NCBI GenBank assembly: GCA_022843125.1
Contig: JALHOG010000021.1
Span: 1-64,000 of the forward strand
Reading direction: 5' to 3'
Source of the DNA: Ilumatobacteraceae bacterium
GTDB lineage: Bacteria; Actinomycetota; Acidimicrobiia; Acidimicrobiales; Ilumatobacteraceae
DNA length: 64,000 nucleotides
In this document: positions 16,572 through 41,873 of the stretch, in pieces
How the letters are laid out: each line of letters opens with the position of its first letter
Position numbering within the stretch: the first letter of the stretch is position 1
Position numbers and translations under genes: made by a program
The notes under the pieces: model-generated
Database searches by the model: none
What the model was told of the DNA's origin: nothing
Seen by the model: the letters and a program-made list of their open reading frames with translations, nothing else

Positions 16572-17609
16572 TCAGCCGGTGACGGGGCGGCGTTCGACGG
16601 TGCCGTCGGCGCGGGTGACGAACAGGGCGTCGATTCGTGGCCAGGCGAGCTGACTGACGCCGGCTGGGCCGTCAACACCAGCATCGTCGACGTCGAGCGG
16701 GCGCATCTGGTCGCGGGCCTTGCGCGGCCTCCGCCACAGCACGAGGCGCCCGGCCGCGCACCCGGTGACGAGCCGGCCGCCGTCGCGCTGCCAGGCGATC
16801 GCATCGATGTGGCGGTCATGCGCTTCGCCGCTCGCCGGGGCGCGGCCGCTCGGACCCTTGCCCGAGAAGTCCCACACGGTGAGGCCGCCGAGGCAGCCGA
16901 CCGCCAGCCACTGGCCCTCGGGCGAGAACACGAGGCGTTCGACCTTGGCCGGATAGCCCGACATCGACAGCTCGTCGCCCGACCACAGCTTCCAGAGGTG
17001 GACGGTCGCATCCTGTGAGCCTGCACACGCCCATCGCCCGTTCGGCGACACCGCGAGGCCGAGCAACGAACCCTTCCACTCGAACATGGCCGTTGGCTCG
17101 AGCGCGGGGTCGGACACTTCGAACCAGGTGATCCCGCCGTACGCGATCGCGCCGACGCGGCCACTGTTGGGGGCCCACGCGACGTCGGTGACCGTCGAGG
17201 CGAGCGGGGCGTAGCGGTGCGTGATCGTGCCGGCGGTGTCGGCCACGAGCACGTGCTTGCCGGAGGCGATCGCGAGGAAGCGGCTGTCGGGGGACCAGGC
17301 GACGCGCTGCACCCATGCACCCGTGGCGATCGCGGCGATCTCGCGCAGGTCGCGGTCGACGATGCGGACCATGCCGTCCTGGCCGCCGGCCGCCAGATGG
17401 TCACCCGAGCGCGACCAGGCGAGCGTGGTGATGCCCATCGGGTGGTCGGCCAGCTTGAACAGGACCTCGCCGGTCGTGGCGTCGGCGACGACCCCGTCCC
17501 CGGCCAACGAGCCAGCTGCAACACGCTCACCGGTCGGGTCGACCGCGACTGCTGCGACGTAGTCGGCCAGCTCGAAGCGCCAGATCGGCGCGCCGATCAG
17601 ACCAGACAC
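16572..17609 (-). CDS. WD40-repeat beta-propeller protein, COG0523 partner (copy 1)
   Basis: 345 residues from GTG 17609, overlapping the end of the COG0523 gene by 13 nt. About seven WD40-like blades are visible with repeated patterns such as VAAVAVDPTGERVAAGS, TLAWSRSGDHLAAGG and GLAVSPNGRWACAGS...VHLWK. No signal peptide or membrane segment, so it is probably a cytosolic scaffold. It is the second gene behind the Zur-like box at 18616. Two other WD40 genes in this window (29278, 37939) also follow metal-handling genes. Function unknown; a client-binding role beside the metallochaperone is inferred. Confidence 0.85.
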   Translation of the reverse strand: MSGLIGAPIWRFELADYVAAVAVDPTGERVAAGSLAGDGVVADATTGEVLFKLADHPMGITTLAWSRSGDHLAAGGQDGMVRIVDRDLREIAAIATGAWVQRVAWSPDSRFLAIASGKHVLVADTAGTITHRYAPLASTVTDVAWAPNSGRVGAIAYGGITWFEVSDPALEPTAMFEWKGSLLGLAVSPNGRWACAGSQDATVHLWKLWSGDELSMSGYPAKVERLVFSPEGQWLAVGCLGGLTVWDFSGKGPSGRAPASGEAHDRHIDAIAWQRDGGRLVTGCAAGRLVLWRRPRKARDQMRPLDVDDAGVDGPAGVSQLAWPRIDALFVTRADGTVERRPVTG

Positions 17610-18601
17610 GCCCGGAACCCCTGCTCGAGCTCGGTGCGATCGAGGTTGCGACCGATGAACACCAGCTTGTTGGTGCGCGATTCGCCGTCGCGCCACGGGC
17701 GGTCGGCCTGCCCGTCGAGCAGCATGTGCACGCCCTGGAACACGTATCGCTTGTCGGCGCCCTCGATCGCGAGGATCCCCTTGGAGCGGAAGATGTCGAC
17801 ACCCCGCTCACGCAGCAGCGTGCCGATCCAGTTGTTGAGCTTGCGCTCGTCGACCTCGCCGTCGATCGCGAGCCCGACCGACGTGACGGTGAGGTCGTGC
17901 TGGTGCTCGGCGTCCGGATCGAGGAACTCGGGATCGTCCGCGAGCACGCGGTTCAGGTCGAACGCGCCGACGTCGAGGATCGCGTCGAGGTCGACCTGGC
18001 CGAAGGTGGTCCGCACGATCGGCGCCAGGTGGTTGATGGCGCGGATGCGGCGCTCGACGGCCTGCAGGTCGTATTCACCGGCCGTGAGGTCGATCTTGTT
18101 GAGCACGATCCGATCGGCGAACGCGAGCTGCTCGACGGCCTCGTTCTCGGTGCCCTCGGGCTTCTCGTCGTCGAGGTGCGTCACCAGGTGGACGGCGTCG
18201 ACGACCGTCACGATCGCGTCGAGCCGGAGCTGGCTCGAGATCTCGTCGTCGACGAAGAACGTCTGGGCGACGGGCGCCGGGTCGGCGAGGCCGGTGGTCT
18301 CGACGAGGATCTGGTCGAACTTGTCGCGCCGCTTCATCAGGTTGCCGAGGATGCGGATGAGGTCGCCGCGCACGGTGCAGCAGATGCACCCGTTGTTCAT
18401 CTCGAAGATCTCCTCCTCGGCGTCGAGCACGAGCGCGTCGTCGATGCCGATCTCACCGAACTCGTTCTCGATGACGGCGATCCGCTTGCCGTGCTGCGCG
18501 GTGAGGATGTGGTTGAGCAGGGTCGTCTTGCCCGAACCGAGGAACCCGGTGAGCACGGTCACGGGAACCCGGGTGTCGATGGCGGTCGCGGTGTCGGTCA
18601 T
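17597..18601 (-). CDS. COG0523/CobW-family GTPase, putative zinc metallochaperone (1)
   Basis: 334 residues from ATG 18601. Walker A GFLGSGKT (19-26), metal motif GCICC (71-75), ETTG switch and NKID base-recognition motif (168-171) are all present; the CobW C-terminal domain follows. Members of this family deliver zinc or other metals to client enzymes using GTP. The start is set by a leaderless promoter (TATTGT ending 7 nt upstream) under a Zur-like box. It is cotranscribed with a WD40 gene and divergent from a [2Fe-2S]-type small protein. Confidence 0.92.
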   Translation of the reverse strand: MTDTATAIDTRVPVTVLTGFLGSGKTTLLNHILTAQHGKRIAVIENEFGEIGIDDALVLDAEEEIFEMNNGCICCTVRGDLIRILGNLMKRRDKFDQILVETTGLADPAPVAQTFFVDDEISSQLRLDAIVTVVDAVHLVTHLDDEKPEGTENEAVEQLAFADRIVLNKIDLTAGEYDLQAVERRIRAINHLAPIVRTTFGQVDLDAILDVGAFDLNRVLADDPEFLDPDAEHQHDLTVTSVGLAIDGEVDERKLNNWIGTLLRERGVDIFRSKGILAIEGADKRYVFQGVHMLLDGQADRPWRDGESRTNKLVFIGRNLDRTELEQGFRACLV

Positions 18602-18615
18602 CCGCCCGACAATAC

Positions 18616-18630
18616 TCAGAATCGTTCTCA
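18616..18630. promoter_or_regulatory. Zur-like operator, box 1 (divergent)
   Basis: On the minus strand the site reads TGAGAACGATTCTGA, close to the palindrome TGAGAATnATTCTCA shared by six sites in this window. It lies between the COG0523 gene (minus, -10 TATTGT) and the small ferredoxin-like gene (plus, -10 GATAAT at 18647-18652) and would block both promoters when zinc is replete. Confidence 0.75.
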
Positions 18631-18660
18631 TTCACTCGATCAGCTCGATAATCTCACCGG

Positions 18661-19068
18661 ATGGCACCATCCCGCCCCGCGTTCCGCGTCCTGCTGTGCG
18701 ACGGCTGCTGCTGCGGCACCGAGCGCAAGCACCCCGACGTCGACCATGCGGCACAGCGGTCCAGGCTGGGTCATGCTGCCCGGCAGGGTGGCGGGTCGGT
18801 GCGGACCACCGGGTGTCTCGACCGGTGCAGCGAGTCCAACGTGGTCGTGGTGCGCCGCAGCGACGGCCCCACCACGTGGCTCGGGCGTGTGCTCGATCAG
18901 GACGCCGAGCGGGCCGTCGCGACCTGGCTCGCGGCCGGAGCCGACCCGGACGCGATGTCCGACACGGTCCGCCGCCTCGCCCTGCCGGCCCCGGTCAGCA
19001 ACGAGGCGAGCACGAAGCAGGCGACGGCGATCAGCGCGATCGTCGGGCCCGGCGGGGTCCCGAGGTGA
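18661..19068 (+). CDS. Small (2Fe-2S) thioredoxin-like ferredoxin-type protein
   Basis: 135 residues. The N-terminus has VLLCDGCCCGTERKHPDVDH and the middle TTGCLDRCSESNVVVVR...TWLGRVL, the cysteine layout of thioredoxin-fold [2Fe-2S] proteins. The family domain ends near residue 110; the remaining 25 residues run 172 nt into the convergent znuB gene, an unusual overlap. Leaderless start: GATAAT ends 8 nt before ATG 18661. Shares Zur-like box 1 with the COG0523 gene, so it probably has a role in zinc limitation. Precise function unknown. Confidence 0.72.
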   Translation: MAPSRPAFRVLLCDGCCCGTERKHPDVDHAAQRSRLGHAARQGGGSVRTTGCLDRCSESNVVVVRRSDGPTTWLGRVLDQDAERAVATWLAAGADPDAMSDTVRRLALPAPVSNEASTKQATAISAIVGPGGVPR

Positions 19069-19790
19069 TAGCTGAGCGTCAGGCCGCCGAGGCATGACCC
19101 GACGCCGATCGCAACTGCGACCAGGGTCATGGTCGACACCTGGTCGGTGACGAGACGCGCCGCGGCGGCGGGGGTCACGAGCATCGCCACGCTGAGCAGG
19201 AGCCCGACCGTGTCGAGGCTCACCACGACCGTGACGGAGATCAGCGCCATCAGCACGTACCGCAGGCGCGCCACCGGAACCCCGACCTGCGCTGCGTGGA
19301 TCGGATCGAAGGTCAACGCGCGCAGGTCGCCGAACGACACGGCGACCGTGAGCAGGGCGAGCAGGGTCAGCGACGCGGCGATGACGAGATCGGTGCGGTC
19401 GATCGTGACGATCTGGCCGAACAGGAAGTGGGTGATGTCGACACCGATCCGGTCGGTCTGGCTGATGAGCAGCACCCCGAGCGCGAACATCAGCGTCTCG
19501 GCGACGCCGATGATCGAGTCCTGCCCCAGCCGGCGTCGCCCCTCGAACGCGGTGATGACCCACCCCATCACCAGGCCGGCGGCCAGCGCGCCGAGCGTGA
19601 TCGAGATGCCTGCCATGTAGGCGGCCGCCACGCCCGCCAGCGTGCCGTGGCTCATCGCATCGCCGAGGTACGCGAGCCGGCGCAGCACCACCCACACGCC
19701 GACCGTCGGAGCGAGCACTCCCACGAGCAGCGCGGCGAGCGCCGCTCGCTGCATGAAGTCGGTCTGGTACGGGTCGAGCAGCCAGCTCAC
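18897..19790 (-). CDS. znuB: Zinc ABC transporter permease ZnuB
   Basis: 297 residues, ABC-3 family permease with about eight membrane helices. The family pattern RRLAYLGDAMSHGTLAGVAAAY is seen near residue 37-60 and SFGDLRALTFDPIHAAQVGV in the cytoplasmic coupling region. GTG start 7 nt after the znuC stop. The last 25 residues (after TGAGRARRR) are polar and extend under the convergent ferredoxin-like gene, so the functional protein could end earlier in relatives. Confidence 0.92.
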   Translation of the reverse strand: MSWLLDPYQTDFMQRAALAALLVGVLAPTVGVWVVLRRLAYLGDAMSHGTLAGVAAAYMAGISITLGALAAGLVMGWVITAFEGRRRLGQDSIIGVAETLMFALGVLLISQTDRIGVDITHFLFGQIVTIDRTDLVIAASLTLLALLTVAVSFGDLRALTFDPIHAAQVGVPVARLRYVLMALISVTVVVSLDTVGLLLSVAMLVTPAAAARLVTDQVSTMTLVAVAIGVGSCLGGLTLSYHLGTPPGPTIALIAVACFVLASLLTGAGRARRRTVSDIASGSAPAASQVATARSAS

Positions 19791-19797
19791 CGTGCGC

Positions 19798-20550
19798 TCA
19801 CACGGTTCCGGCGAGTGCGCTGCCGAACACGGCGTCGAGCTCGCGTTCGCCGAGCACGGTCCGTGGATCGCCGTCGGCGACGAGGCCGCGGTTGATCGCC
19901 AGGCACCGGTCGAACCGACGCCGTGCGAGCGCGAGGTCGTGGGTGGCGACGAGGAGCGTCACCCCGTCGTCGCGGAGGGCGTGGAACACGTCGAGCAACT
20001 GCTCGGTGCGGGGCTGGTCGACACCCGAGAGCGCCTCGTCGAGCAGGAGCACGTGGGCCTCCTGCGCGAGCGCACGGGCGAGGAACGCCCGCTGCGCCTG
20101 GCCGCCCGACAGGGTGCCGATCGGCCGTTCCGCGAGATCGTCGACGCCCACCCGCCGCATGCAGCCGAGCGCAGCGTCGCGATCGGCCTGACGCGGCCGC
20201 CGACCGAACGGAACGAAGCGGCGCCGGCCCGACAGGACCAGATCACCGACCGTGATCGGGAACCCCATGTCGAGGTCGCTGCGCTGCGGGATGTACGCCG
20301 CGCACATCCGGTCGCGCTGGTGGTGGCAGTGGGCACCGCTGAGCGCGACCGCTCCTGCGTGCGACACCAGGCCGACGATCGCCCGGAACATCGAGCTCTT
20401 CCCGGCACCGTTGGGCCCGATCACGGCGATCAGCTCGCCGGCCCCCACGTCGAACGTCACGTCGCGCAGCGCGACGACGTCGCCGTAGGCGACACCCAGC
20501 CCGTCGACCGACAGCAACCCGCAGCCTGCGTCGTGCACAGGTGGGTTCAC
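19798..20550 (-). CDS. znuC: Zinc ABC transporter ATPase ZnuC
   Basis: 250 residues from GTG 20550, overlapping the znuA stop by 4 nt. Walker A GPNGAGKSS, signature LSGGQAQR, Walker B VLLLDEALSGVD and the ATHD switch are visible, as is GAHCHHQRDRMCAAYIPQR of the metal-type subfamily. It powers ZnuB for zinc import. A longer open frame upstream is only a shadow of znuA. Confidence 0.93.
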   Translation of the reverse strand: MNPPVHDAGCGLLSVDGLGVAYGDVVALRDVTFDVGAGELIAVIGPNGAGKSSMFRAIVGLVSHAGAVALSGAHCHHQRDRMCAAYIPQRSDLDMGFPITVGDLVLSGRRRFVPFGRRPRQADRDAALGCMRRVGVDDLAERPIGTLSGGQAQRAFLARALAQEAHVLLLDEALSGVDQPRTEQLLDVFHALRDDGVTLLVATHDLALARRRFDRCLAINRGLVADGDPRTVLGERELDAVFGSALAGTV

Positions 20551-21503
20551 GCGGTACACCCGAGCCCGGCGACGAGCCGCTCCAGGTTCTCGCGCATGAT
20601 CGTCGCGTACGAGGTGCCCTCCTCGATCTGCTCGCCGGTCAGCCCTTCGATCGGATCGAGCAGGGACAGCTCGGCGCCGATCTCGTTCGCGACGGTCTCG
20701 GCGAGGTCGGGCGGCGCCAGCTCCTCGAGGAAGATCGTCGTGACGCCCTCGGCTGCCGCCTCCTCGGCGATCGCCTCGAGCGTCCGCGGGTCCGGTTCGG
20801 CGTCGGGCGAGACGCCGGCGATCGGGATCTGGCGCAGGCCGTACTGCTCGGCGAGGTAGCCGAACGCGCGATGGCTGGTGACGACCACCCGCGACTCGCA
20901 CTCGGCGAGCGCGGTGCGGTACTCGGCGTCGAGCCCCACCAGGTTCTCGAGGTAGGCATCGGCGTTGGTGCGGTAGGTGCCGGCGTTGTCGGGGTCGGTC
21001 TCGCTCAGCGTGTCGACCATCGCCTCGACCATCGTGATCATCCGGGCCGGGTCGAGCCACACATGTGGGTCGACGTCGCCCTCGAGCACCTCACCGTCGA
21101 CCTCGCCCTGCGTCCCGGCGAGCTGCGGGTCGACCGGCAGCAAGTCGACGGCGTCGAGCAGGTCGACCACGACCGTGTCGTCGCCCGCCCCACCGGCGGC
21201 GTCTTCGACCTCGGGCTGGAAGTTGCGGCCGAGCAGGAACACGACGTCGGCATCGACGATCTCCTCAACCTGCTTGGGTTCGAGCTGGACGTCGTGCGGC
21301 CCCTGACCGGGTGGGGTGATGCCGATCACCTCGACGAGATCGCCACCGACGCCGCGGGCCGCTTCCTCGATCGGGTAGAAGGCGGCGGCCACGCTCACCG
21401 ATCCGGAGGCACCGTCATCGTCGCTGCCGCACGCCGCGAAGGTGCCGGTGACGATGGCGGCGACGATGACGGGCATGGCACGCGAGTGGCGGGGTGATGA
21501 CAT
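20547..21503 (-). CDS. znuA: Zinc-binding lipoprotein ZnuA
   Basis: 318 residues with a lipoprotein signal (FAAC, lipidated C25). Cluster A-I ligands fit zinc: H70 (GPHDVQL), H147 (DPHVWLDP), H211 (TSHRAFGYL) and an acidic residue at 260/261 (FLEELAPP). The usual His-rich loop is replaced by an acidic one (EVDGEVLEGDVD, about 134-145). The start has no ribosome site; TATAGC ends 8 nt before ATG 21503, suggesting a leaderless transcript under Zur-like box 2. First gene of znuACB. Confidence 0.93.
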   Translation of the reverse strand: MSSPRHSRAMPVIVAAIVTGTFAACGSDDDGASGSVSVAAAFYPIEEAARGVGGDLVEVIGITPPGQGPHDVQLEPKQVEEIVDADVVFLLGRNFQPEVEDAAGGAGDDTVVVDLLDAVDLLPVDPQLAGTQGEVDGEVLEGDVDPHVWLDPARMITMVEAMVDTLSETDPDNAGTYRTNADAYLENLVGLDAEYRTALAECESRVVVTSHRAFGYLAEQYGLRQIPIAGVSPDAEPDPRTLEAIAEEAAAEGVTTIFLEELAPPDLAETVANEIGAELSLLDPIEGLTGEQIEEGTSYATIMRENLERLVAGLGCTA

Positions 21504-21522: not shown

Positions 21523-21537
21523 TGAGAGTGATTCTCA
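21523..21537. promoter_or_regulatory. Zur-like operator, box 2 (divergent)
   Basis: TGAGAGTGATTCTCA lies between znuA (minus) and a 67-residue gene plus COG0523 gene (plus). Its position covers the -35 to -10 zone of both promoters (minus-strand TATAGC; plus-strand TACCGT at 21545-21550). Next to znuABC this is the strongest functional anchor for calling the six sites Zur boxes. Confidence 0.82.
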
Positions 21538-21556: not shown

Positions 21557-21760
21557 ATGGAACTGATGAGTACCTCGCTGATCGACTGCTTCGGTTCGAC
21601 CACCCACACCCTCACGCTGCTCGTCGACGGGCGCGTGCGCATCAGGTTCGCGAGCGGGGCCGAGGCCGACGTCGATCCGAACACCGGCACGGTGCTCACG
21701 CCCGGGCGCACCGTTCCCGACCACGTGGTGGCGGCCGCGCGCTCGATGCGCCTCGGATGA
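21557..21760 (+). CDS. Small 67-residue protein of unknown function in the zinc regulon
   Basis: Begins MELMSTSLIDCFGSTTHTL. The start is fixed by a leaderless promoter, TACCGT ending 6 nt before ATG 21557, below Zur-like box 2. Its stop overlaps the ATG of the next COG0523 gene by 4 nt, implying translational coupling. The predicted protein is short, mostly beta-strand (TLTLLVDGRVRIRF, ADVDPNTGTVL) with one Cys and one His. No family recognised; it may assist or regulate the GTPase. Confidence 0.65.
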   Translation: MELMSTSLIDCFGSTTHTLTLLVDGRVRIRFASGAEADVDPNTGTVLTPGRTVPDHVVAAARSMRLG

Positions 21761-22704
21761 GACGGCGGCATGATGGCGGCGTGACGCGCTACGTCGAGCC
21801 CGAGTTCCTGCCGTGGGACGGCCGCCGGGTGCCGCTCACGTTCGTCGGCGGGTACCTGGGCGCAGGGAAGACCACGGCGATCAACGAGGTGCTCGCCCAG
21901 ACCGATCGCCCGATCGCCGTGATCGTGAACGACGTCGGTGCGGTCAACATCGACGCTGCGCTGATCCGGCGGCGTCACGGTGACACGATCGAGCTGACCG
22001 ACGGGTGCGTCTGTTGCTCGTCGGTCGACGGGCTGGGAGCGGCGTTCGACCAGATCCGGGCGCGGCCCGAGCCACCCGACCACGTGCTCGTCGAGCTGAG
22101 CGGGGTCGCCGAGCCGTCGCAGGTGGTGCCCTGGGGATGGTCGGCGGGCTTTCGGCTGGACGGCGTGATCGTGATCGCGGCGGCGGACCAGCTCGCAGGA
22201 GCAGCGGCGTTGCCGCGTTGGATCGTGGAGCGCATCGACCGGCAGATCGTCGAGGCCGACCTGCTGGTGCTCACGAAGACCGACATCGTCGACCTCGATG
22301 TCGAGCGGGCCGCGCGCGCCCGGCTCGACGAGCTGGCCCCGACGACCCCGGTCCTGGTCGGCGGCCGTGGCAGCGTCGAGCCCGGAACGGTCGGGCGGTT
22401 CCTGTCGCTCGGCGGTCGCCGCCCGGGTGGGCCGGCGGCGGTGCCCGACCCGACCCTGTTCGACGCCCACCAGGTCGCGACGGTTGCCGCCCCACGCGAC
22501 GTCAGCTCGGCCGAGCTCGACGTGTGGCTCGACTCGCTCGGGCAGGGGAGTGGGGGCGAGGTCGTCCGCGTCAAAGGGCTGGTCGACACGACCGACCTCG
22601 GGCTCGTGCTGGTGCAGGTGGTCGGCCGCCGCCGAGAGGTGACGCCGGTGCCCGAGCCTGAACGCGGCGAGCCCACCGACCTCGTCGTGATCTCGCTCCG
22701 CTGA
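21757..22704 (+). CDS. COG0523/CobW-family GTPase, putative zinc metallochaperone (2)
   Basis: 315 residues if read from ATG 21757 (4-nt overlap with the small upstream gene); GTG 21781 is an alternative start. Walker A GGYLGAGKTT (31-40), metal motif GCVCC (82-86), ELSG switch and TKTD base motif are intact. The C-terminal domain is short and lacks a His-rich tail. Same Zur-like control as znuA. Likely hands metal to an unknown client during zinc limitation. Confidence 0.9.
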   Translation: MRRRHDGGVTRYVEPEFLPWDGRRVPLTFVGGYLGAGKTTAINEVLAQTDRPIAVIVNDVGAVNIDAALIRRRHGDTIELTDGCVCCSSVDGLGAAFDQIRARPEPPDHVLVELSGVAEPSQVVPWGWSAGFRLDGVIVIAAADQLAGAAALPRWIVERIDRQIVEADLLVLTKTDIVDLDVERAARARLDELAPTTPVLVGGRGSVEPGTVGRFLSLGGRRPGGPAAVPDPTLFDAHQVATVAAPRDVSSAELDVWLDSLGQGSGGEVVRVKGLVDTTDLGLVLVQVVGRRREVTPVPEPERGEPTDLVVISLR

Positions 22705-24352: not shown

Positions 24353-24952
24353 ATGCCCGACGTCGAGTCGCTCGTCCGTGTCCGCCTACGCGCGCTCCGC
24401 CAGCAGCGGGGTTGGTCGCTCGACGAACTGGCCGAGCGGGCGCACCTGAGCGCGTCGACGCTGAGCCGGATCGAGACAGGGAAGCGGAGCATCGGGCTCG
24501 ACGTGCTCGTGGCGCTGGCGCAGGCGCTCGCAGCTGACATCGACCAGCTCCTCGCTGCCGACGACGACACCGACGTCGTGATCCGTCCGGCGCCCACCGG
24601 GATGGGCAACGCGACGGTCTGGCCGCTCAGCCGCCCGGGCGCGTCGACCACCGCGGTGAAGATCCGCTACGAGCCCTCGGATCGTCGCCCCGAGCCGAAG
24701 GTGCATCCCGGTCACGACTGGATGTTCGTCCTCGACGGAACGGTGGAGCTGACGCTGGGCGAGCGCCGGATCCTCGTCAACACGGGGGAGGCGGCCGAGT
24801 TCTCGACGATGACCCCGCACGCCGTCGCAGCCGTCGATCGCCCCGCCGAGGTCCTGATGCTGTTCGACCACGAGGGGCAGCGCACGCATCTCCGGCCGTC
24901 CCAGGACCGGAAGAAGCAGCGCCCGACACAGGATCCAGCGAAACAAGAATAG
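24353..24952 (+). CDS. XRE-family regulator with C-terminal cupin domain
   Basis: 199 residues. Residues 5-60 form an HTH_3 domain (LRALRQQRGWSLDELAERAHLSASTLSRIE). Residues 105-180 form a cupin (HPGHDWMFVLDGTVELTLGE...GEAAEFSTMTPHAV), likely sensing a small ligand. The C-terminal tail is basic. It is divergent from the TrxR/methyltransferase fusion and probably controls it through the 24315-24335 palindrome. Start ATG 24353 is 17 nt beyond that palindrome. Confidence 0.87.
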   Translation: MPDVESLVRVRLRALRQQRGWSLDELAERAHLSASTLSRIETGKRSIGLDVLVALAQALAADIDQLLAADDDTDVVIRPAPTGMGNATVWPLSRPGASTTAVKIRYEPSDRRPEPKVHPGHDWMFVLDGTVELTLGERRILVNTGEAAEFSTMTPHAVAAVDRPAEVLMLFDHEGQRTHLRPSQDRKKQRPTQDPAKQE

Positions 24953-24964
24953 GAATCATTCTCA
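24950..24964 (+). promoter_or_regulatory. Zur-like operator, box 3
   Basis: TAGGAATCATTCTCA precedes the leaderless promoter TACGAT (24973-24978), which ends 7 nt before ATG 24986. The right half (ATTCTCA) is perfect, the left half weaker. It would control the methyltransferase, importer, mogA and WD40 operon (24986-30321). Confidence 0.68.
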
Positions 24965-24985: not shown

Positions 24986-25768
24986 ATGCAGTTCGTCACC
25001 GAGTGGGATCGCCAGCAGGCGTCGTACATCGCCGCCCGCGAAGAGCGCTTCGACACGATGCTCGCCGCGGTCGAGTGGGGGCTCGGGCAACGCGGCGTGA
25101 CCAGTCCCGTCGTGGTCGACCTGGGCTGCGGCCCGGGTGCGCTCGGGCAGCGGCTCATGCAGCGCCTCCCCGACGCGCACTACATCGGGATCGACATCGA
25201 CCCCGTCCTGCTGCACCTGGCGCGCAAGGTGGGCGCCGCCTATGCGTCGGAGCAGTTCACCGTGATCGACTGCGACGTCAGCGACGAGCGGTGGCTCGAC
25301 CTGGTAGCCGCCGGTGCAGTCGACGCGGTGTGCTCGTCGACGGCGCTCCACTGGCTGGTCGGTACCGACCTCGATCGGACCCTGGCGCTCGCGCACCTGG
25401 CGCTCGCGGACGGCGGTGTCTTCCTCAACGCCGATCATCTCGGGTTCTCCTCCCAGCGGCTCGAGGCCGTCTCTCGTTGGATCGCCGACAGCGACGAGCT
25501 CGCCGCGCGCAGGGCTGGGGCGCTCGACTGGCCGACCTGGTGGGGCCTGGCGCGCGCCGACCCCGAGCTCGGGCCGCTGTGCGTGGCCCGCGACCTCGTG
25601 TACCCCCCGCTCGATCAGCCGGCCGACGGCGACGATTCCGGCCGACCTCCGCTGAGCCTGTTCCTCGACGCGCTCAGCGCGGCCGGTTTCGAGGATGTCG
25701 ACACGATCTGGCAGCGCTTCGACGACCGCATCGTGATGGGCGTCAAGGGTTCGCCCGCCGCTCGATGA
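24986..25768 (+). CDS. Class I SAM-dependent methyltransferase in a Zur-controlled operon
   Basis: 260 residues. Motif I VVVDLGCGPGALGQRL (41-56), motif II IGIDIDP, and motif IV CSSTALHWL give a standard small-molecule methyltransferase. It is first in the operon with the FecCD-type importer; its stop overlaps the permease start by 4 nt. A related methyltransferase (34301-35056) ends the zinc-free ribosomal protein operon. Substrate unknown; modification of a metallophore is one possibility. Confidence 0.85.
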   Translation: MQFVTEWDRQQASYIAAREERFDTMLAAVEWGLGQRGVTSPVVVDLGCGPGALGQRLMQRLPDAHYIGIDIDPVLLHLARKVGAAYASEQFTVIDCDVSDERWLDLVAAGAVDAVCSSTALHWLVGTDLDRTLALAHLALADGGVFLNADHLGFSSQRLEAVSRWIADSDELAARRAGALDWPTWWGLARADPELGPLCVARDLVYPPLDQPADGDDSGRPPLSLFLDALSAAGFEDVDTIWQRFDDRIVMGVKGSPAAR

Positions 25769-30349: not shown

Positions 30350-30364
30350 CGAGAATCATTCCTG
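30350..30364 (+). promoter_or_regulatory. Zur-like operator, box 4
   Basis: CGAGAATCATTCCTG matches 12 of 15 bases of TGAGAATCATTCTCA. It precedes a leaderless promoter TACCGT (30373-30378), 6 nt from ATG 30385, and would place the Fe-type alcohol dehydrogenase operon under zinc control. Confidence 0.68.
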
Positions 30365-32540: not shown

Positions 32541-33991
32541 TCGACGCACTCGTCGGATTCGTCGCCGTGCTCCGCCATCACGGCCTCGACGTCGGTACGG
32601 ATCGGACGTTGGCGGCAGCCCGCTCCCTGGCGCACGTCGACCTGGCCGACCGGGCTGCCACGCAACGCGCGCTCCGCATCACGTTGGTTGCCCACCGGCT
32701 CGACGAGGCACGATTCGACGACCTGTTCGACCGGTGGTTCGACGGGCGGATCGACGAACTGCACGACGACGATGACGCGAACCATGTCGAGCAGTCGGGT
32801 GCTGCGGTCCAGCCCTCTGGTGTCGAACTGACGCTCGACACCGAGCGGCGGCTCCATGCTTCGAGCCCCGATGGGAGTTACGTCGACGACCCGTCGGAAC
32901 GGATCGGCGTCGCAACGACTCACGAGACCGAGGGGCGGCCGGGCCCGGCGAGCCCGGTGATCGATCCCGGCGGCGATCCTGTCGCGGTGATGGTCGACGG
33001 GGCCGTGGGTGTCGGGGCGGCGAGCCCTGGACACGACGGGCTGACGACGCGTCGAGCGGCCGGTGAGACCGGCGCGATCCACCTCGGTTCCGAGGACGGT
33101 GATCTCTCCCACGTGCTCGATCGGCTCGCTGCGCAACGGCACCGCCGGCTGGCTCGACTCCATGTCGTCTCGCCGGGACCGGCAGCGCCGTCGTCGTGGG
33201 GCCGGTCGCTCCTCGCCAACCCGTTCGACGCGGCGGAGCGTCGGTTGCTCCGGAGCGTCGTGGACGAGCTCCGCCCACAGCTCACCGGGATGCCGGCATG
33301 GCGGCATCGACCTGGGCCGGCAGGTGAGCTCGACCTGCGGCGGACACTGCGGAGAGCTGCGACGACGGCCGGGACGCCGATCGACCTGCGGTACCGGTCT
33401 CCCGCCCCATCGCGGGCGTCGGTGCTCGTCCTGCTCGACACGTCGCTGTCGGTTCGTCCTACGGCACGGCTGATGCTCCATCTCGCACATCGGCTCCGCG
33501 CAGCGATCGGCCGGGTGCGGGTGCTGGCCTTCATCGATCGCTGCGTCGACGTCACCGACGTGATCCGGCATGCCGATCTGGCGGTGGCGCTCGGACGGCT
33601 GCTCGACGATGCACCCGGCGGCCCGCTCGACCCGGCACGGCCGTCCGACTACGGCGCGGCGATGCGCTCGCTGTGGGCTCGGTACGCCGGCCTGGTGCGC
33701 CCGACCACCACCGTGATCGTGCTCGGTGACGGCCGGTCGAACGGGCGCGACCCGGCCGTCGCCAGCGTGGCTGCGCTCACCGAGCGCTGCCGGCGGACCG
33801 TGTGGCTGACCCCCGATCCGCCCGGCGCCTGGGGTTTCGGCCATGGGGAGATGACGCACTACGCCGACACGGTCGATGTGGCCTGGACCGTTCGGACCCT
33901 GGACGATCTCTCGACGCTCGCCGCTTCCGGCCAGATCGCTGTTCCGCGGGCGGTTCAGGGCGCTGTCGGCGACCGGTGGCGGTACACGTAG
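32537..33991 (+). CDS. VWA-domain protein, CoxE-like
   Basis: 484 residues from GTG 32537, 4-nt overlap with the AAA gene. The N-terminal 85 residues are helical, residues 90-215 are low-complexity and variable, and the C-terminal VWA domain has the MIDAS motif LLDTSLS near residue 301. This AAA+/VWA pairing is the CoxD/CoxE type used in metal-cofactor assembly. The 3' end overlaps the remnant of a GNAT gene on the other strand. Confidence 0.88.
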   Translation: MIDALVGFVAVLRHHGLDVGTDRTLAAARSLAHVDLADRAATQRALRITLVAHRLDEARFDDLFDRWFDGRIDELHDDDDANHVEQSGAAVQPSGVELTLDTERRLHASSPDGSYVDDPSERIGVATTHETEGRPGPASPVIDPGGDPVAVMVDGAVGVGAASPGHDGLTTRRAAGETGAIHLGSEDGDLSHVLDRLAAQRHRRLARLHVVSPGPAAPSSWGRSLLANPFDAAERRLLRSVVDELRPQLTGMPAWRHRPGPAGELDLRRTLRRAATTAGTPIDLRYRSPAPSRASVLVLLDTSLSVRPTARLMLHLAHRLRAAIGRVRVLAFIDRCVDVTDVIRHADLAVALGRLLDDAPGGPLDPARPSDYGAAMRSLWARYAGLVRPTTTVIVLGDGRSNGRDPAVASVAALTERCRRTVWLTPDPPGAWGFGHGEMTHYADTVDVAWTVRTLDDLSTLAASGQIAVPRAVQGAVGDRWRYT

Positions 33992-34300: not shown

Positions 34301-35056
34301 TCACGTCGAACGCGCTGCGGTCCGGGCGATCATGAGGTAGGCGGGCCCGCTCCGGGCGGCCACCGTGACCGTGTCGAAGCCCGCGCGATCGAGGAGTGAG
34401 GTCAGTTCCGAAAGCGACGGATGGTGCTCGGCGCTTTCGGGAACCGAGCGGGCGGCGCGGGCCGCGAACGCGTCCGGCCATGCACGCCCGCCGATCGAGG
34501 CGGCGAGATCCCACCATTGCGTCCATGTCGGGCCGGCGTGGTCGTCCGCAGCGTGCAGGATCTCGCCGCCGGCTTCGTCGACGACGTCGATCACGGCGAG
34601 CAGCCCGCCGGGCCGGAGGACGGAGCGGATCTCCTCGAGCATGGCCGGCCAGTCCGCCGCCGGGAAGTAGTGCAGGACGAGCATCGCCACCACGGCGTCG
34701 AACGGCCCGTTTGCGCAGACGTGCACGCTCCATCCGGGGTCGATCGCCGAGTCGACGATGTCGGCGCGGCCTGCGAACCGGTCGAGGTTCCGGCGCCCGA
34801 GCGCCACCAGCACCGGATCATTGTCGATGCCGATCAGCGATGCGCGGGGGAGTTCGGTCGCGATGGCCGCGAGCAGCGACGCAGGCCCGCAACCGAGGTC
34901 GAGGATCGCCAGGTCGGAATCGAGCGACCGGAGTTCGGCGAGGAGGTGATCGACCAGCCGTGGGCGTCCGGGGAGGTAACGCTCGGACATGGCCTCCCAG
35001 CGGTCGAGGAGCAGTGCGACGTCGCTCGGGTCGAGGGGTTCGGCGTTCATCGGCAT
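34301..35056 (-). CDS. Class I SAM-dependent methyltransferase ending the zinc-free ribosomal operon
   Basis: 251 residues from ATG 35056, which overlaps the stop of the flavoprotein gene by 1 nt (TGATG). Motif I LAILDLGCGPASLLAAIA, LIGIDNDP and VVAMLVLHYF identify the fold. It resembles the methyltransferase at 24986. Fifth gene behind Zur-like box 5. Substrate unknown; pairing with a putative N-hydroxylase suggests small-molecule chemistry. Confidence 0.83.
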   Translation of the reverse strand: MPMNAEPLDPSDVALLLDRWEAMSERYLPGRPRLVDHLLAELRSLDSDLAILDLGCGPASLLAAIATELPRASLIGIDNDPVLVALGRRNLDRFAGRADIVDSAIDPGWSVHVCANGPFDAVVAMLVLHYFPAADWPAMLEEIRSVLRPGGLLAVIDVVDEAGGEILHAADDHAGPTWTQWWDLAASIGGRAWPDAFAARAARSVPESAEHHPSLSELTSLLDRAGFDTVTVAARSGPAYLMIARTAARST

Positions 35057-36264
35057 CAGCCCGCGGCGAGCGGAACACGCACGATCGGATCGATGTCGAG
35101 ATCGATGCCGGTGATCGACCGCGTGATGCGGCGCGCTGCGACCCTGGCTCCCCAGAGGTTGCCGGCCGCTGGGCCGATCGTCGGGGCCGCCAGACGACCG
35201 ACCACGTGCACCCGGGTACCGCGTAGGCACAGGTCCGGATCGAGGAGCGGGTAGCCGTCGACCGACTCGAGGTCGAGGTCGGCGAGCGCCGGTTCCGCGT
35301 CGACGGCTGGTGTGCTGCCGGTCGCCAACCAGCATCGGTCTGCATCCACGACGGTGCCGGCGAGGTCGATCCGTACGCGGTCGGCCCCGGCGACCACGCG
35401 AGCATCGGAGAGATCGTGCACGATCCGCTGCAATCGGTCACGCTCGCGATGTGTGGCGAGCGCCTCGTCCATCCACGGCGGCACGCTGCCGCCGCCGCGG
35501 GCCGCCCGGACCAGGGCCAGCCGCCGCTCCGGGCTGCGCTCGACGCCGAAACGGTTGAGCTCGCGCGGTCCGAGCCACGCCGGCTCGACGTCGAAGTCGC
35601 GCACGACGACCGGTCGACGGACGATCTGGATGACGTCTGCGCCGCGTCGGATCGCTCCGCAGGCGAGGTGCCCAGCCGTCAGCCCGCCGCCGACGACGAT
35701 GACACGCTGACCGAGGAGCGAACCGTGGGTGCGAAGGTCGATCCGGCTGCTGTGCACCACACGATCGCTCGAACTGACCGCGTCGACGAATGCTGCCGGC
35801 ACGCAGGGTCGGGAGGGGTTCGAGGCGACGATCACCCGCGTCGCTCTGATGGTGCGGCCGGGCGTGGCCACGATGCACTCGTCGCCGACGTCGATCCGGT
35901 CGGCCCGGTCGGCGATCACGATGTCGGCGAGCCCGAGGCTCTCGATCAGCTCGTCGCAGTAGCCATCGAACACCGACGCCAGCGGAATCCCGTACGGGAG
36001 GCCGCTCGTGGGTTGGCTCCGTCGGCGGGTGAATGTCCCCAGACCGCCCGGGTCGACGCCCGGATGATGCACCATCGCCGAGCGGAGCACGTCGATCCCG
36101 AGCCGGGCGAACTGGTCGCGCCACGTGGTGAGCCATGCCCCGGCAGGGTCGAGCACGACGATCCCGCCGCGCAACGTCGGTCGGGCCGCGATGAGATGAG
36201 TGGCAACGGCGAGGCCGTGCGGGCCTGCGCCGACGATGCAGACGTCGACCGAACGGACCGTCAC
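35056..36264 (-). CDS. FAD/NAD(P)-binding monooxygenase-like protein
   Basis: 402 residues from GTG 36264, overlapping the L31 stop by 4 nt. FAD motif DVCIVGAGPHGLAVATHL (residues 6-23), a second dinucleotide motif VIVVGGGLTAGHLA near 180-193, and WRDQFARLGIDVLRSAMVHHPG resemble the lysine/ornithine N-hydroxylase-like flavoprotein group. It is cotranscribed with zinc-free ribosomal proteins under Zur-like box 5. A role in making or modifying a metal chelator is possible but unproven. Confidence 0.8.
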   Translation of the reverse strand: MTVRSVDVCIVGAGPHGLAVATHLIAARPTLRGGIVVLDPAGAWLTTWRDQFARLGIDVLRSAMVHHPGVDPGGLGTFTRRRSQPTSGLPYGIPLASVFDGYCDELIESLGLADIVIADRADRIDVGDECIVATPGRTIRATRVIVASNPSRPCVPAAFVDAVSSSDRVVHSSRIDLRTHGSLLGQRVIVVGGGLTAGHLACGAIRRGADVIQIVRRPVVVRDFDVEPAWLGPRELNRFGVERSPERRLALVRAARGGGSVPPWMDEALATHRERDRLQRIVHDLSDARVVAGADRVRIDLAGTVVDADRCWLATGSTPAVDAEPALADLDLESVDGYPLLDPDLCLRGTRVHVVGRLAAPTIGPAAGNLWGARVAARRITRSITGIDLDIDPIVRVPLAAG

Positions 36265-36954: not shown

Positions 36955-36969
36955 CGAGAATCACTCTCA
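36955..36969. promoter_or_regulatory. Zur-like operator, box 5 (divergent)
   Basis: The minus strand reads TGAGAGTGATTCTCG, 14 of 15 bases the same as box 2 at znuA. It lies 20 nt upstream of the leaderless rpmB start and 22 nt upstream of the divergent COG0523-like/WD40 pair, so it can regulate both. Confidence 0.8.
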
Positions 36970-36991
36970 TAACTCGTCCGAAACGATCACG

Positions 36992-37942
36992 GTGTCGAGC
37001 GCGATCACCGTGGTCGCAGGTGGTGCCGGGCTCGATCGACTCCTGGCACACGTGGCGACCCCGGGCACGGCGGTGATCGCCCCACGCTCCGTCGTGCCCG
37101 GGGCGTTCGTGCCTGGCGCCACGATGGTTGCGGCCGACGTCGAATCGCGGACGCCTGGATGCAGCTGCTGTGCCGTGCGCCTCGATCTGATCGCGGCTGT
37201 CGAGCGGGCCGTGCTCCGGCGTGAGCGGCCAGGTCACGTGGTCGTGGCCGTCGATCTCGACGAACCGGCCGCTGCTGATGTCGTGACCGTCGTGTACACG
37301 CTGCTGTCCGATCCCGACCTCGCGCGACTCGTCAGGCTCGACGGCGTGGTCGTGGCGGTCGATCCGGTTGCGCTCGCCACCAGGCGGGCCGTCGGGCTGC
37401 CCGTACTCCGGCGTGCCGAGATCGAAGCGCTCGCCGTCGCCGACCGGGTGCTCGTCGGACGGGCCGACGCGCTCACCCCCCACGTCGCGCACGACGTCGA
37501 CGCCCTGTTGCACGCCGTGGCGCCCTACGCATACGTCCTGGCGCCGGCCCGGGTGCCCGTCGGCCGTGCCGACCTGTTCGGCATCGATGCCTGGCACGGC
37601 GTGCCTCATCATCATCAGCCATCCACCGTTCGGTCTTCCTTGGGCCTCGAGCTGCCCGACACGGTCGTGCTCCGGCATCAGGGCGCGCTCGACCCCGATG
37701 CGGCCGACCTGTTCTTCGACCGACTCGTCACGGGGAACGCGCCGCGGATCCTCCGGTTCCAGGGCGTGGTCGTCGGACGCGGCAGCGTCGGGCGGACCTG
37801 CTGCCACGGCGTGCGCTCCTACGCGATGAGCCATCCCGCCGCCGAGGACGGCGACCCCGGGCCGGACAACCTCGTCGTGGTGACCGGCTGGGGGCTCGAC
37901 GTCGACGAGCTCGTCGACGACTTCCGCGAGGCGACCGCGTGA
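36992..37942 (+). CDS. Degenerate COG0523 paralogue lacking nucleotide-binding motifs
   Basis: 316 residues from GTG 36992. The order of elements is that of COG0523: a first strand, the metal motif GCSCC (56-60) followed by [13 protein letters not shown], and a C-terminal domain with [11 protein letters not shown]...VVTGWGLD. However, the Walker A loop has become GGAGLDRLL (10-18) with no GKT, and the NKxD motif is GRAD. It therefore probably binds metal but not GTP. An HHH cluster lies near 205-210. A non-catalytic metal carrier, sensor or partner of the intact GTPases is the best guess. Behind Zur-like box 5; overlaps a WD40 gene by 4 nt. Confidence 0.78.
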
Positions 37943-38928
37943 GTACGGCGCCGCTGCTCACCGAGGTCGACTCGGAGTGGCGAACCGAGTTGGCCGACGG
38001 CCTCCGTTCGATTGCATGGTCGCCCGGCGGGCGTCTGGTCGCCGTCGACGCGGCAGGCGTCGTCCTCATCGATCGGCCGGAACAGCGGAGCACGCCGGTA
38101 GGGCCTGATCCGATCGCCGCCACCTGGCTGGGTGATCGTCGGGTCCTGGTCGCTGACGCCGCGATCGGGGTCGTGAGCGTCGGGGGCGGATGTGAACGGC
38201 TGGGACGTGTCGCGTCGTGTCTCGTCGGTAGCGGCAGGACGGTCGTCGCCGGCTGTGCGGACGAACTCGTCGTCTGGCGAGTCGATGCGCGCGACGTCGT
38301 GACCGTCGAGTCGCGCTGCGGTCGGGTTCGTGCGATCGCGCCGATCACGTCGACGTTGTGGGCGGTGGCCGGTGCCGACGGGGTGAGCGTCGTCGACGTG
38401 GCGCTGGACGCAGCCGATGTCGTCGTCGAGATCCCCGGGGCGCTCACGGTGGCGGCACATCCCGGTGTCGACTTCGTCGCCGCGAGCGATGTCTCCGGCA
38501 CGGTGCACCTGATCCCGCTCGGCGGTGGTGTGGCAGGTGCCGAGCTCGACGGCTACCCGGATCGAGTGCGCCGACTCGGATGGGTTGCCGGGGTGACGGC
38601 GCAGCTCGTCGCCGTCGCCGACGACGAGCTGACCTGGTGGCAGGTCAGTGAGGCCGCCGGGGCGGCGGACCAACCCGTGACGGTCGTCGCGCACGAGAGC
38701 GCGATCACTGCGCTGGCCGTGGACGCATCGGGCATGGTCGTGAGCGGTGATGCCGGCGGCGGGGTGCGGCTGTGGTCGCCGCTCCTGCCCGACCGCCCGG
38801 TGTGGGCTGCGGAGCTCGGCGCACCCGTCACCGCCGTCGCGTGGAGTCGGGACGGTGACCGGATGGTCGTCGGATGCGGCGACGGATCGCTGGTCCGATT
38901 CCGGGTGTTCCCCGGCAGCATCGCCTGA
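37939..38928 (+). CDS. WD40-repeat beta-propeller protein, COG0523 partner (copy 3)
   Basis: 329 residues from GTG 37939, 4-nt overlap with the degenerate COG0523 gene. Blade patterns such as [43 protein letters not shown] and [23 protein letters not shown] are clear at both ends, weaker in the middle. No signal peptide. The close pairing repeats the arrangement at 16572-18601, supporting a joint function. Confidence 0.83.
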
Positions 38929-38931
38929 ACG

Positions 38932-39087: not shown

Positions 39088-39131
39088 GGGGGCGTTCCTC
39101 TCTGGTTGGTGTTCTCGGGTTCGTGGGTTCC

Positions 39132-39260: not shown

Positions 39261-39311
39261 GCGCGTCGCTGCCGGTCGTGGTCGGTCGTCACAGCCCGCG
39301 GCTCGATACCG

Positions 39312-39839: not shown

Positions 39840-39897
39840 GCCCGATCCTCGCACGGGACGAGCGGTCGACCTCGCGTTGGCCGGGCCGGCCTGAAGG

Positions 39898-40203: not shown

Positions 40204-40244
40204 GGGGGCGTTCCTCTCTGGTTCGTGTTCTCGGGTTCGGCGGT

Positions 40245-40562: not shown

Positions 40563-40581
40563 ATTCTGATATTCGAATGTG
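40560..40581. promoter_or_regulatory. ArsR/SmtB operator
   Basis: CACATTC-N8-GAATGTG is a perfect 7-bp-arm palindrome that overlaps the GTG start of arsR, in an AT-rich patch. A -10-like AATATC sits inside it on the minus strand, so the start is probably leaderless and the repressor would block RNA polymerase directly. Confidence 0.7.
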
Positions 40582-40623
40582 ACGATGTCAACCCGTCAGC
40601 GAGCCGTCAGGCGTGGTCGGGCG

Positions 40624-41838
40624 TCACAGCTCGCAGGCGAGATCCCACTCGGGCAGCGGGTCGTCGAACATGGCCCACCCGTCGAACCCGAGCACGAACT
40701 CGGCCGGGGTGAGCACGCATGCGTCGAGCCGGGCGCGCAGCGCCACCTCGTCCATGTCGATGCCGATGAGGACGAGCTCGGTGAGTCGATCGCCGAGCAG
40801 CGGATCCCATCGTTCCAGCAGCTGCGAACGATCCGTGTCGCTCTCGAACTCCCACTCGTCCTCGGGGAGCGCGGCGTACCACGGCGACAGTGGTTCGAGT
40901 TGGACCGACAGCCCGGCCTGGCTCCACATGCCCTGCACCTCGGGACGGGTGGCGAGCCAGAAGAAGCCCTTGCTGCGGAGCACCCCCGGCCAGTCCGACG
41001 CGAGCGCCTCGGCGAGCCGTCCGGGATGGAACGGCCACGGGTTGCGGTAGACGAACGACGAGATGCCGTACTCGTCGGTCTCCGGTGTCGTGTCGCCGTT
41101 GAGCGCGCGCACCCAACCGGGAGCGAGGGCGGCTTCGTCGGCGTCGAACAGACGGCTGTCGAAGATCAGCGACAGCGGCACGTCGCCGCGCTCGACGATC
41201 TCGATCACGGCGCGCGGGTTGAGCGAGCGGACGAGCGACACCACCTCGCCGAGCTCGTCGGGGTCCACGAGGTCGGGCTTGGTCACGGCGATCACGTCGG
41301 CGAACTCGACCTGGTCGACGAGGAGATCGACGAGCATGCGATCGTCCTCGCCGTCGCGTGCCAGGCCGAGCTCGGCCAGATCGGACAGCTCGCCGAAGTG
41401 CTCGACGAACCTGGCCGCGTCGACCGCGGTCATCATCACGTCGAGCCGGGCGAGGGAGTCGAGCGACTCGCCGCCGTCCTGGTCGAACATGAACGTCGCG
41501 GCCACCGGCATCGGCTCGGAGATGCCGGTCGACTCGATCAGCAGGTGATCGAACCGTCCCTCGCGTGCGAGGCGGGCGACCTCGACGAGCAGGTCGTCGC
41601 GCAGGGTGCAGCAGATGCACCCGTTGGTCATCTCGACGAGACGTTCCTCGGTCCGGTCGAGCTGGACGCCGCCGCTCGCCACCAGCGACGCGTCGATGTT
41701 GATCTCGCTCATGTCGTTGACGATCACGGCGACGCGCCGACCCTCACGGTTGGCGAGCACCCGGTTGAGGATGGTGGTCTTGCCGGCCCCGAGGAATCCG
41801 GAGAGCACGGTGACGGGGAGCCGCGAGTCGGACTGCAT
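40624..41838 (-). CDS. COG0523 GTPase, YciC/ZagA-like zinc metallochaperone (4)
   Basis: 404 residues from ATG 41838, the long form typical of YciC/ZagA/ZigA. Walker [11 protein letters not shown] (13-22), GCICC (73-77), ESTG switch and TKPD base motif are intact; the large C-terminal CobW domain is present. Leaderless promoter TAGCGT ends 7 nt upstream and Zur-like box 6 follows. ZagA-type proteins are among the most strongly zinc-repressed genes and support folate or other zinc enzymes. Confidence 0.93.
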
Positions 41839-41858
41839 GCGGCCCACGCTACCGGAGA

Positions 41859-41873
41859 TGAGAATTGATCTCA
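41859..41873. promoter_or_regulatory. Zur-like operator, box 6
   Basis: TGAGAATTGATCTCA, with perfect TGAGA/TCTCA arms, lies just upstream of the YciC-like gene's leaderless promoter and overlaps the stop codon of the neighbouring SnoaL-like gene (41871-41873). Confidence 0.78.

Follow-up and report, generated by a model that had tools for sequence, protein, structure and literature searches.

The closest described zinc-starvation clusters

Zinc-starvation genes are known to lie together in mycobacteria. In Mycobacterium smegmatis, the cluster MSMEG_6045-6071 is induced by N,N,N',N'-tetrakis(2-pyridylmethyl)ethylenediamine (TPEN) and by deletion of zur (PMC7174638), and in M. avium paratuberculosis 45 of 70 TPEN-responsive genes occupy one island of approximately 90 kb, with 35 under predicted FurB control (PMC4298942). 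Here, we analyse a stretch of 64,000 nucleotides (the window) from an Ilumatobacteraceae bacterium, bases 1-64000 of contig JALHOG010000021.1 (C21; 72,353 bases) in a draft genome of 5.49 Mb (183 contigs, 93% complete, 70% G+C). Within it, an island of 25.3 kb (16572..41873) is very probably a Zur regulon gathered in one place, because of the number of Zur-like boxes, their promoter spacing, the boxes found in relatives, the pairs of ribosomal proteins without (C-) and with (C+) zinc-ligand cysteines, the set of COG0523 genes, and a zur-like gene at a boxed znu locus elsewhere in the genome. The sites, their spacing, the gene families, the paralogs and the boxes at the same genes in relatives can be read directly from the DNA.

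Like the island, the M. smegmatis cluster unites znuABC, two CobW-type genes, alternative L28/L33/L31, an S-adenosylmethionine methyltransferase and extra transporters. It differs in also carrying S14, S18, MspD and a P-type ATPase, and the table in the consulted part of that report names no WD40, iron-containing alcohol dehydrogenase (Fe-ADH) or FecCD gene in the cluster (PMC7174638). The M. avium paratuberculosis island differs in carrying MptABC, and its authors call it unique to that mycobacterium (PMC4298942). A neighbourhood of the COG0523a-WD40a-znuABC type, with predicted Zur sites, was described in 2009 for COG0523 subfamily 5 (PMC2770081). The first-pass annotation of the window had presented the clustering as unusual and the WD40 proteins as new regulon members; the former has precedents in the two mycobacteria (PMC7174638, PMC4298942), and the latter in the subfamily 5 genes reported beside WD40 genes (PMC2770081).

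Six Zur-like boxes

The six 15-bp sites that had been proposed as matching operators are all present, five with one or two mismatches to the consensus TGAGAATnATTCTCA and one with four; none matches it exactly.

18616..18630, Zur-like box 1, 2 mismatches
21523..21537, Zur-like box 2, between divergent genes, 1 mismatch
24950..24964, Zur-like box 3, its first bases forming the stop codon of the upstream gene, 2 mismatches
30350..30364, Zur-like box 4, the weakest consensus match, 4 mismatches
36955..36969, Zur-like box 5, between divergent genes, 2 mismatches; locus L191 of a relative has a box between the same genes
41859..41873, Zur-like box 6, 2 mismatches

Boxes 2 and 5 do share 14 of their 15 bases once box 5 is read on the opposite strand. 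The form of the boxes, a palindrome with a 1-bp centre lying over core promoters, is that expected of an actinobacterial Zur regulon. Positions 4 and 12 of the consensus are G and C, where most mycobacterial sites seen carry A/T.

At up to three mismatches, the window holds five places against 0.35 expected, a number reached in none of 100 shuffles; box 4 is missing from this search because of its four mismatches. Genome-wide, eight palindromic places occur at up to two mismatches (approx. 0.93 predicted from base composition for 5.49 Mb), and five of the eight fall inside the island (binomial P = 1e-10 for at least five). Allowing three mismatches gives 13 places, compared with four for the reversed pattern.

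Genes behind the boxes

The island genes and their best family matches are as follows.

16572..17609, -, WD40a, beta-propeller, putative operon partner of COG0523a (Pfam WD40 2.7e-30)
17597..18601, -, COG0523a GTPase (cobW 1.5e-62; Walker A, CxCC and NKxD present)
18661..19068, +, possible DUF1636-like small protein with CxxCCC, from translation; 3' end overlaps znuB
18897..19790, -, znuB, ABC-3 permease (7.1e-70)
19798..20538, -, znuC, ATPase (6.9e-25)
20547..21503, -, znuA, zinc-binding protein (1.6e-75, scanned from 21476)
21557..21760, +, sm67, 67-residue protein; homologs of 44-53% in zinc loci of five relatives
21781..22704, +, COG0523b GTPase (cobW 2.5e-36)
24986..25768, +, MT1, methyltransferase, putative first gene of the importer operon (Methyltransf_25 6.1e-14)
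25834..26862, +, FecCD-type permease (1.2e-90)
26892..27923, +, periplasmic binding protein, Peripla_BP_2 (9.6e-16)
27931..28719, +, FecE-type ATPase (2.2e-31)
28716..29285, +, mogA-like molybdopterin adenylyltransferase (NF006932, 243.6 bits, cut-off 158)
29278..30321, +, WD40b (3.6e-16)
30385..31635, +, Fe-ADH, like N,N-dimethyl-4-nitrosoaniline (NDMA)-methanol dehydrogenase (TIGR04266, 512 bits, cut-off 625)
31674..32540, +, MadB-like MoxR AAA ATPase (NF047784, 320 bits, cut-off 475)
32537..33991, +, MadC-like VWA protein (VWA_CoxE 2.1e-33; NF047783, 178.5 bits, cut-off 600)
34301..35056, -, MT2, methyltransferase, putative end of the ribosomal-protein operon (6.3e-17)
35056..36264, -, FADox, FAD/NAD oxidoreductase (Pyr_redox_2 2.6e-11); homolog behind a box in L077
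36261..36521, -, L31 without cysteine ligands (C-); zinc-type paralog on contig C20
36521..36691, -, L33 without cysteine (C-); zinc-type paralog on contig C124
36698..36934, -, L28 without CxxC pairs (C-); zinc-type paralog on contig C25
36992..37942, +, COG0523c, without Walker A or NKxD, CxCC kept
37939..38928, +, WD40c, partner of COG0523c (8.3e-11)
40624..41838, -, COG0523d, ZigA-like GTPase (cobW 3.9e-49; ZigA NF038288, 541 bits, cut-off 600)

Box 1 faces COG0523a-WD40a leftward and the possible DUF1636-like gene rightward; box 2, znuA-znuC-znuB and sm67-COG0523b; box 5, L28-L33-L31-FADox-MT2 and COG0523c-WD40c. Box 3 precedes the methyltransferase, FecCD-type importer, mogA and WD40b, box 4 precedes Fe-ADH and the MadB-like and MadC-like genes, and box 6 precedes COG0523d. 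Provided that these gene runs are operons, 25 genes stand behind the six boxes. Both znuABC and COG0523 are among them, as in actinobacterial Zur regulons.

The gene content bears out the zinc-limitation theme of the first-pass annotation. L28, L33 and L31 each have two copies in the genome; those in the island lack the zinc-ligand cysteines, and the C+ copies lie elsewhere. PF02492 matches six genes in the genome, four in the island and two whose sequences suggest UreG and HypB, so that all the COG0523 genes found sit in the island. The description of these four as GTPases is apt for COG0523a, b and d, which carry Walker A, CxCC and NKxD (as TKxD in b and d), and fails for 36992..37942, which has no GTPase motifs. 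From its WD40 neighbour, COG0523a appears subfamily-5-like, and the COG0523a-WD40a pair recurs in relatives. A COG0523b homolog lies behind a box in L077 and behind L28-L33-sm67 in L074. No family was found for sm67 in library scans, and no relative of it in a search of a collection of genome contigs.

A gene missed in the first pass may lie on the plus side of box 1, at 18661..19068: its product matches DUF1636 at 0.017, and a homolog beside COG0523a in L068 (9605-9988) at 8e-4, both weak and below the cut-off. Among the other members newly proposed at that stage, mogA, WD40b and MT2 are placed in the regulon by their positions in presumed operons only. Inside the island, an HTH (helix-turn-helix)-cupin gene and a thioredoxin-reductase-like domain fused to a methyltransferase (22735-24276) have no box of their own. 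An Rfam scan of the window at gathering thresholds returned nothing.

Promoter layout

Six of the nine starts flanking boxes share one arrangement: the box, 7-8 nucleotides, TANNNT, 6-7 nucleotides and the start codon. This spacing leads to an ATG at znuA, sm67, MT1, Fe-ADH, L28 and COG0523d; a loose form of it is met at 120 of 127,880 positions and strands of the window. At COG0523a, TANNNT begins 1 nucleotide past the box and the ATG follows 7 nucleotides further on. On the plus side of box 1, TANNNT lies 18 nucleotides away, off the standard spacing, and none was found on the plus side of box 5. The znuA gene fits the spacing with a start at 21503 rather than 21476, and the former is probably the true start. 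In Corynebacterium glutamicum, Zur motifs likewise overlap core promoters, some transcripts are leaderless, and one motif can serve two directions; that regulon differs in comprising six transcription units and a 21-bp motif (PMC2823685).

Conservation in relatives

As a held-out test, a matrix derived from the six window sites alone was applied to promoters that had been chosen by protein homology rather than by score. Loci were fetched for COG0523 homologs, and 12 of 14 loci from relatives in the order were used (L070 and L076, approx. 4 kb each, were omitted). Neither group included genes with matches beyond the zinc list; genes less than 160 bases from a locus end, or less than 40 bases behind a neighbour on the same strand, were excluded too. 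Gene calls came from a caller trained on the window, which gives some genes a wrong start (for example Fe-ADH and COG0523c in L191, c2 in L064, znuA and COG0523c in the window). Among the order relatives, 19 of 36 first genes with zinc-type homology score at least 16, compared with 2 of 85 other genes (Fisher 1.8e-10). A matrix trained on relatives' sites puts the six boxes first among all window positions (at least 17.7, next best 7.2); we give this little weight because those sites were picked with the window matrix, which makes the ranking partly circular. A control count that went with this ranking came from loci chosen around motif matches and was set aside.

The best recurrence is in G168, a genome of the same family, where L31-L33-L28, a box, COG0523c-WD40c and then MadC-MadB-Fe-ADH follow one another, with box-FADox-sm67-COG0523d', box-COG0523d and box-COG0523b further on (L077). 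In G338, boxes lie between Fe-ADH and a run of L28-L33-COG0523c-WD40, and before L31-COG0523a-WD40a; in G122, they lie at COG0523x-WD40, Fe-ADH/L31 and COG0523d-L33-L28. A same-genus genome in a single contig, G006, holds an 11-kb version with COG0523d, L28-L33-sm67-COG0523b, znu genes and a zur homolog.

Two side observations concern these loci. A small protein with the pattern V.QLAC.EPGCPP.ET.V (QLDC in one copy) is encoded just upstream of COG0523a in L081, L082, L083, L085, L086, L087 and L089; for the L083 copy, Pfam gave no match at E values of up to 1. In Amycolatopsis palatopharyngis (L089, 12288-16036), a strong box, TGAGAATCATTTTCA, is followed by a binding protein, a methyltransferase 34% identical to MT1, FecCD and FecE, so the pairing of methyltransferase and importer is not unique to the window.

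Gene content is patchy, since COG0523a is absent at E<=1e-40 from all nine same-genus genomes (four of them less than 85% complete), where two matches are COG0523d-like. This pattern fits a history in which all or part of the island was transferred horizontally and the clustering stems from that transfer, not from selection on gene order. So does identity, with COG0523a 71-83% identical in five same-family genomes, 77% in G005 from another family, and 72-75% in Streptomyces and Kitasatospora (among the best 80 of 585 matches). Composition argues otherwise: G+C content is 70.4% in the island and 69.8% in the remainder of the window, and the island's tetranucleotide distances are within the range of other stretches. 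Nor did the window scan reveal a tRNA, or ten scanned proteins from among the flanking genes an integrase or transposase family; the foreign composition and mobility genes of a recently acquired genomic island were thus not found here. We regard transfer as possible, if doubtful.

The Fe-ADH-MadB-MadC unit

The Fe-ADH/MoxR/VWA genes had been put forward as new members that make sense in zinc limitation. That sense, such as a zinc-sparing role for Fe-ADH, is conjectural, but membership of the unit is backed by an equally spaced box in a genome of the same family: the G168 Fe-ADH, 71% identical to the window protein, is preceded by CGAGACCCGTTCTCA, 8 nucleotides, TAGTGT, 7 nucleotides and ATG, the layout of window box 4 (its start being taken as the upstream ATG that matches the start of the window protein). 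L31-L33-L28/box/COG0523c-WD40c and Fe-ADH-MadB-MadC also stand together in G168. At 512 bits against 625, the window protein is below the curated cut-off for NDMA-dependent methanol dehydrogenase.

With its four mismatches, box 4 could be a chance match and the unit lie outside Zur control. In M. smegmatis, MSMEG_6239-6242, which include an AAA ATPase and an alcohol dehydrogenase, are lower, not higher, in the zur mutant (PMC7174638); this is possibly the same kind of unit, a guess made without sequence comparison. Against chance stand the spacing shared with the other boxes, the G168 site and boxes beside more distant Fe-ADH genes (30-36%) in L065 and L192. The relatives' matrix, partly circular as it is, scores box 4 at 18.0, fifth of all window positions, with 7.2 for the best non-box position. 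A chance match is therefore unlikely in our view. No earlier report tying Zur to an iron-containing alcohol dehydrogenase (judged by title), and none bringing MadA, MadB and MadC together with an alcohol dehydrogenase, was found in the part of the literature searched; the candidate alcohol dehydrogenase of C. glutamicum differs in being zinc-dependent rather than Fe-type, and Zur did not bind it (PMC2823685).

COG0523c and its WD40 partner

COG0523c keeps CxCC (as CSCC) and lacks Walker A, ETxG and NKxD; Walker A and NKxD are among the hallmarks of COG0523 (G3E) GTPases. A profile of four COG0523c-type proteins was run on 397 genomes of the order, and in most of these five candidates were scored; 52 had matches at E<=1e-8, a number that includes intact COG0523 proteins. 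In the fetched loci, where sequences were checked, six copies without a P-loop and with CxCC came from five genomes (G000, G168, G338, G079 and two in G104). The G122 copy is intermediate: Walker A is retained, NKxD is gone, and the cysteine motif reads CPQC. Each of these seven COG0523c-type genes is followed by a WD40 gene.

The seven proteins form one clade (100/100) that groups with COG0523a proteins (99/99), while Mrf-like proteins fall with ZigA-like COG0523d proteins (99/100), a second tree giving the same outcome; branches are long and letter make-up uneven, as flagged by the tree program. GTPase motifs thus appear to have been lost twice among COG0523 proteins. The seven WD40 partners are separated from the remaining 19 WD40 rows with 99/97 support, with weak branching inside the seven (proteins of 250-420 residues; one identical row, L041, was dropped from one tree). 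As this split is congruent with that of COG0523c, the two genes appear to have been passed on as a pair. An extra C-terminal cysteine is common to five of the seven clade members and to five of the six P-loop-less copies.

COG0523c shares a box region or gene run with C- ribosomal genes in the window, G168 (L191) and G338 (L192); the stretches fetched from G104 and G079 show no C- ribosomal gene. This position recalls Mrf. In M. smegmatis, MSMEG_6068 is rpmB, 6069 Mrf and 6070 rpmE2, so that Mrf is numbered directly after rpmB and the P-loop-less gene of that cluster is Mrf, not COG0523c (PMC7174638). Rv0106 was described by Haas et al. as lacking both GTPase motifs (PMC2770081), and, according to a review, zinc at a CXXC determines how stable Mrf is (PMC13418864). 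Mrf/Rv0106 and COG0523c are alike in being COG0523-like proteins without GTPase motifs beside C- ribosomal genes, and Mrf/Rv0106 is Zur-repressed, while COG0523c has a Zur-like box nearby (PMC2770081, PMC13418864). They differ in that Mrf groups with the ZigA-like d proteins, whereas COG0523c groups with the a proteins, has a WD40 partner and gives no match to the Mrf model NF047431 at E<=0.001. An Mrf-like copy in L085 passes that model (532 bits, cut-off 375); no protein in 146 order genomes did so, although 14 control genomes also gave none. Mrf is characterized by recruiting a hibernation factor to C- ribosomes; the window's own genome has one S30AE match, barely passing at 25.1 bits (cut-off 23.7). 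Relatives of COG0523c would not be expected in the 2009 COG0523 collection, because its proteins were gathered by CXCC and the P-loop domain (PMC2770081).

COG0523c is most likely a zinc-binding adaptor working with WD40c, perhaps on C- ribosomes, the ribosome link being an analogy by position with Mrf. A more speculative idea, to which we lend only modest credence, is that the pair is a second, independently evolved Mrf-like switch that has kept a thiol zinc site and acts on C- ribosomes when CxCC is empty. If true, two Zur-controlled COG0523 lineages would have convergently lost the GTPase and become zinc-reading ribosome factors. The lost motifs and long branches might instead mark a decaying copy without function, which we consider very unlikely given the open frames and CxCC in all six P-loop-less copies from five genomes, a WD40 partner with a congruent tree split, and an upstream box or an operon with L28-L33 behind boxes.

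A candidate zur gene and the case for Zur

The genome has three Fur-family genes. Two are followed by a KatG-like and a rubrerythrin-like gene, respectively (names from sequence reading); the third, C19:34519-34965, adjoins a second znu locus, and TGAGACGGATTCTCA lies in the divergent promoter region of that locus. This box is without the plain spacing and, as read, coincides in part with a potential start codon of the binding-protein gene. Homologs of the C19 protein, 43-52% identical, occur in the zinc loci of L064, L071, L074, L193 and L196. From this context, the gene is probably zur.

Several results weigh against Zur control of the island. Box 4 reads CGAGAATCATTCCTG, four mismatches from the consensus. 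Three further genome sites, C28:23168 (upstream of an M24 peptidase), C48:20406 (upstream of an S-(hydroxymethyl)mycothiol dehydrogenase, a family match over cut-off) and C6:116779, score like the weaker boxes; they lack the promoter spacing of the window and are probably chance matches, since approximately 0.9 places at up to two mismatches are expected. A 19-position model from relatives' sites found two of the six boxes at E<=10 and no other match in the genome, being too short for such a search. In the order relatives, 17 of 36 zinc-homolog first genes score below 16. Named records supplied 12 further loci (three acidimicrobial, six actinomycete, one Nitriliruptoraceae and two unclassified), and these show a weak enrichment, with 4 of 20 zinc-homolog first genes against 2 of 94 others (P 0.0085; P 0.08 in a rank test). 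The positives there, in L078, L079 and twice in L085, come from two Acidimicrobiia and one unclassified record, with none among the six named actinomycete loci. Finally, the zur name rests on context because sequence alone does not separate Zur from PerR/Fur: among solved structures, the C19 protein matches PerR best (3.6e-13), then Fur proteins, 3mwm (6e-12), which we take to be Streptomyces coelicolor Zur, and FurB 2o03 (5e-11), while its scores with NCBIfam models fall far short of the cut-offs.

Fur-family palindromes resemble one another. With three Fur-family genes in the genome and PerR as the best solved relative of the C19 protein, the boxes might be operators of an iron- or peroxide-sensing member, the FecCD importer and Fe-ADH then being iron genes, but this is highly improbable because boxed znuABC, COG0523 and C- ribosomal proteins are the core of known Zur regulons (PMC2823685, PMC6103462) and the box also marks the second znu locus beside the C19 gene.

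We infer, then, a Zur regulon, with Zur as the binder, zinc as the signal, repression as the sign of control, and operons and downstream roles as predicted from gene content. When zinc is sufficient, zinc-loaded Zur (probably C19:34519-34965) would sit on the 15-bp palindrome just upstream of the -10 element, blocking short-leader or leaderless promoters. As zinc falls, Zur would depart and about 25 genes come on. ZnuABC and the FecCD-type importer would then import zinc (or a zinc carrier), C- L28, L33 and L31 would take the place of the zinc-holding copies, and COG0523 GTPases with WD40 partners would distribute scarce zinc, while the alcohol dehydrogenase unit and the oxidoreductases would adjust metabolism.

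Neighbouring features

Between WD40c and COG0523d, 38932-40581 encodes two His-rich proteins (51 and 101 residues, with HGDHVDYLHDGHRH-type repeats) and an ArsR/SmtB-type regulator (40245-40556), with an inverted repeat, CACATTCTGATATTCGAATGTG, upstream of the regulator gene at 40560-40581. Homologs of a His-rich protein, the ArsR protein or both recur beside zinc loci in L064, L068, L081 and L192, and these genes may therefore be the zinc-excess side of the response. The sequence behind the 51-residue gene (39087-39310) resembles an incomplete additional copy of the end of the ArsR gene (40204-40380), and it looks as if the His-rich/ArsR pair was duplicated and one ArsR copy decayed. Beyond the island, at 42442-44174, a bacteriorhodopsin-type gene (PF01036, 9.4e-42) is divergent from a regulator with helix-turn-helix and B12-binding domains, presumably CarH-like, which is a possible light sensor next to the rhodopsin.

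Implications

Within the part of the literature searched, where none of the matches listed on Acidimicrobiia and Zur names 'acidimicrobi' or 'ilumatobacter', what looks new is the form of the operator and the layout of the promoters in this group, the small protein sm67, the pairing of COG0523c with WD40c, and the presence of a Zur-like box at Fe-ADH-MadB-MadC. The predicted regulon would extend the clustered Zur regulon, experimentally established in mycobacteria, into a probably distant class of actinobacteria, and gives this group a usable operator and promoter model. It places sm67, COG0523c-WD40c, the FecCD-methyltransferase importer and Fe-ADH-MadB-MadC in a predicted low-zinc response. 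COG0523c, as a natural COG0523 relative with the metal motif and without GTPase motifs, would allow metal binding to be studied separately from GTP hydrolysis.

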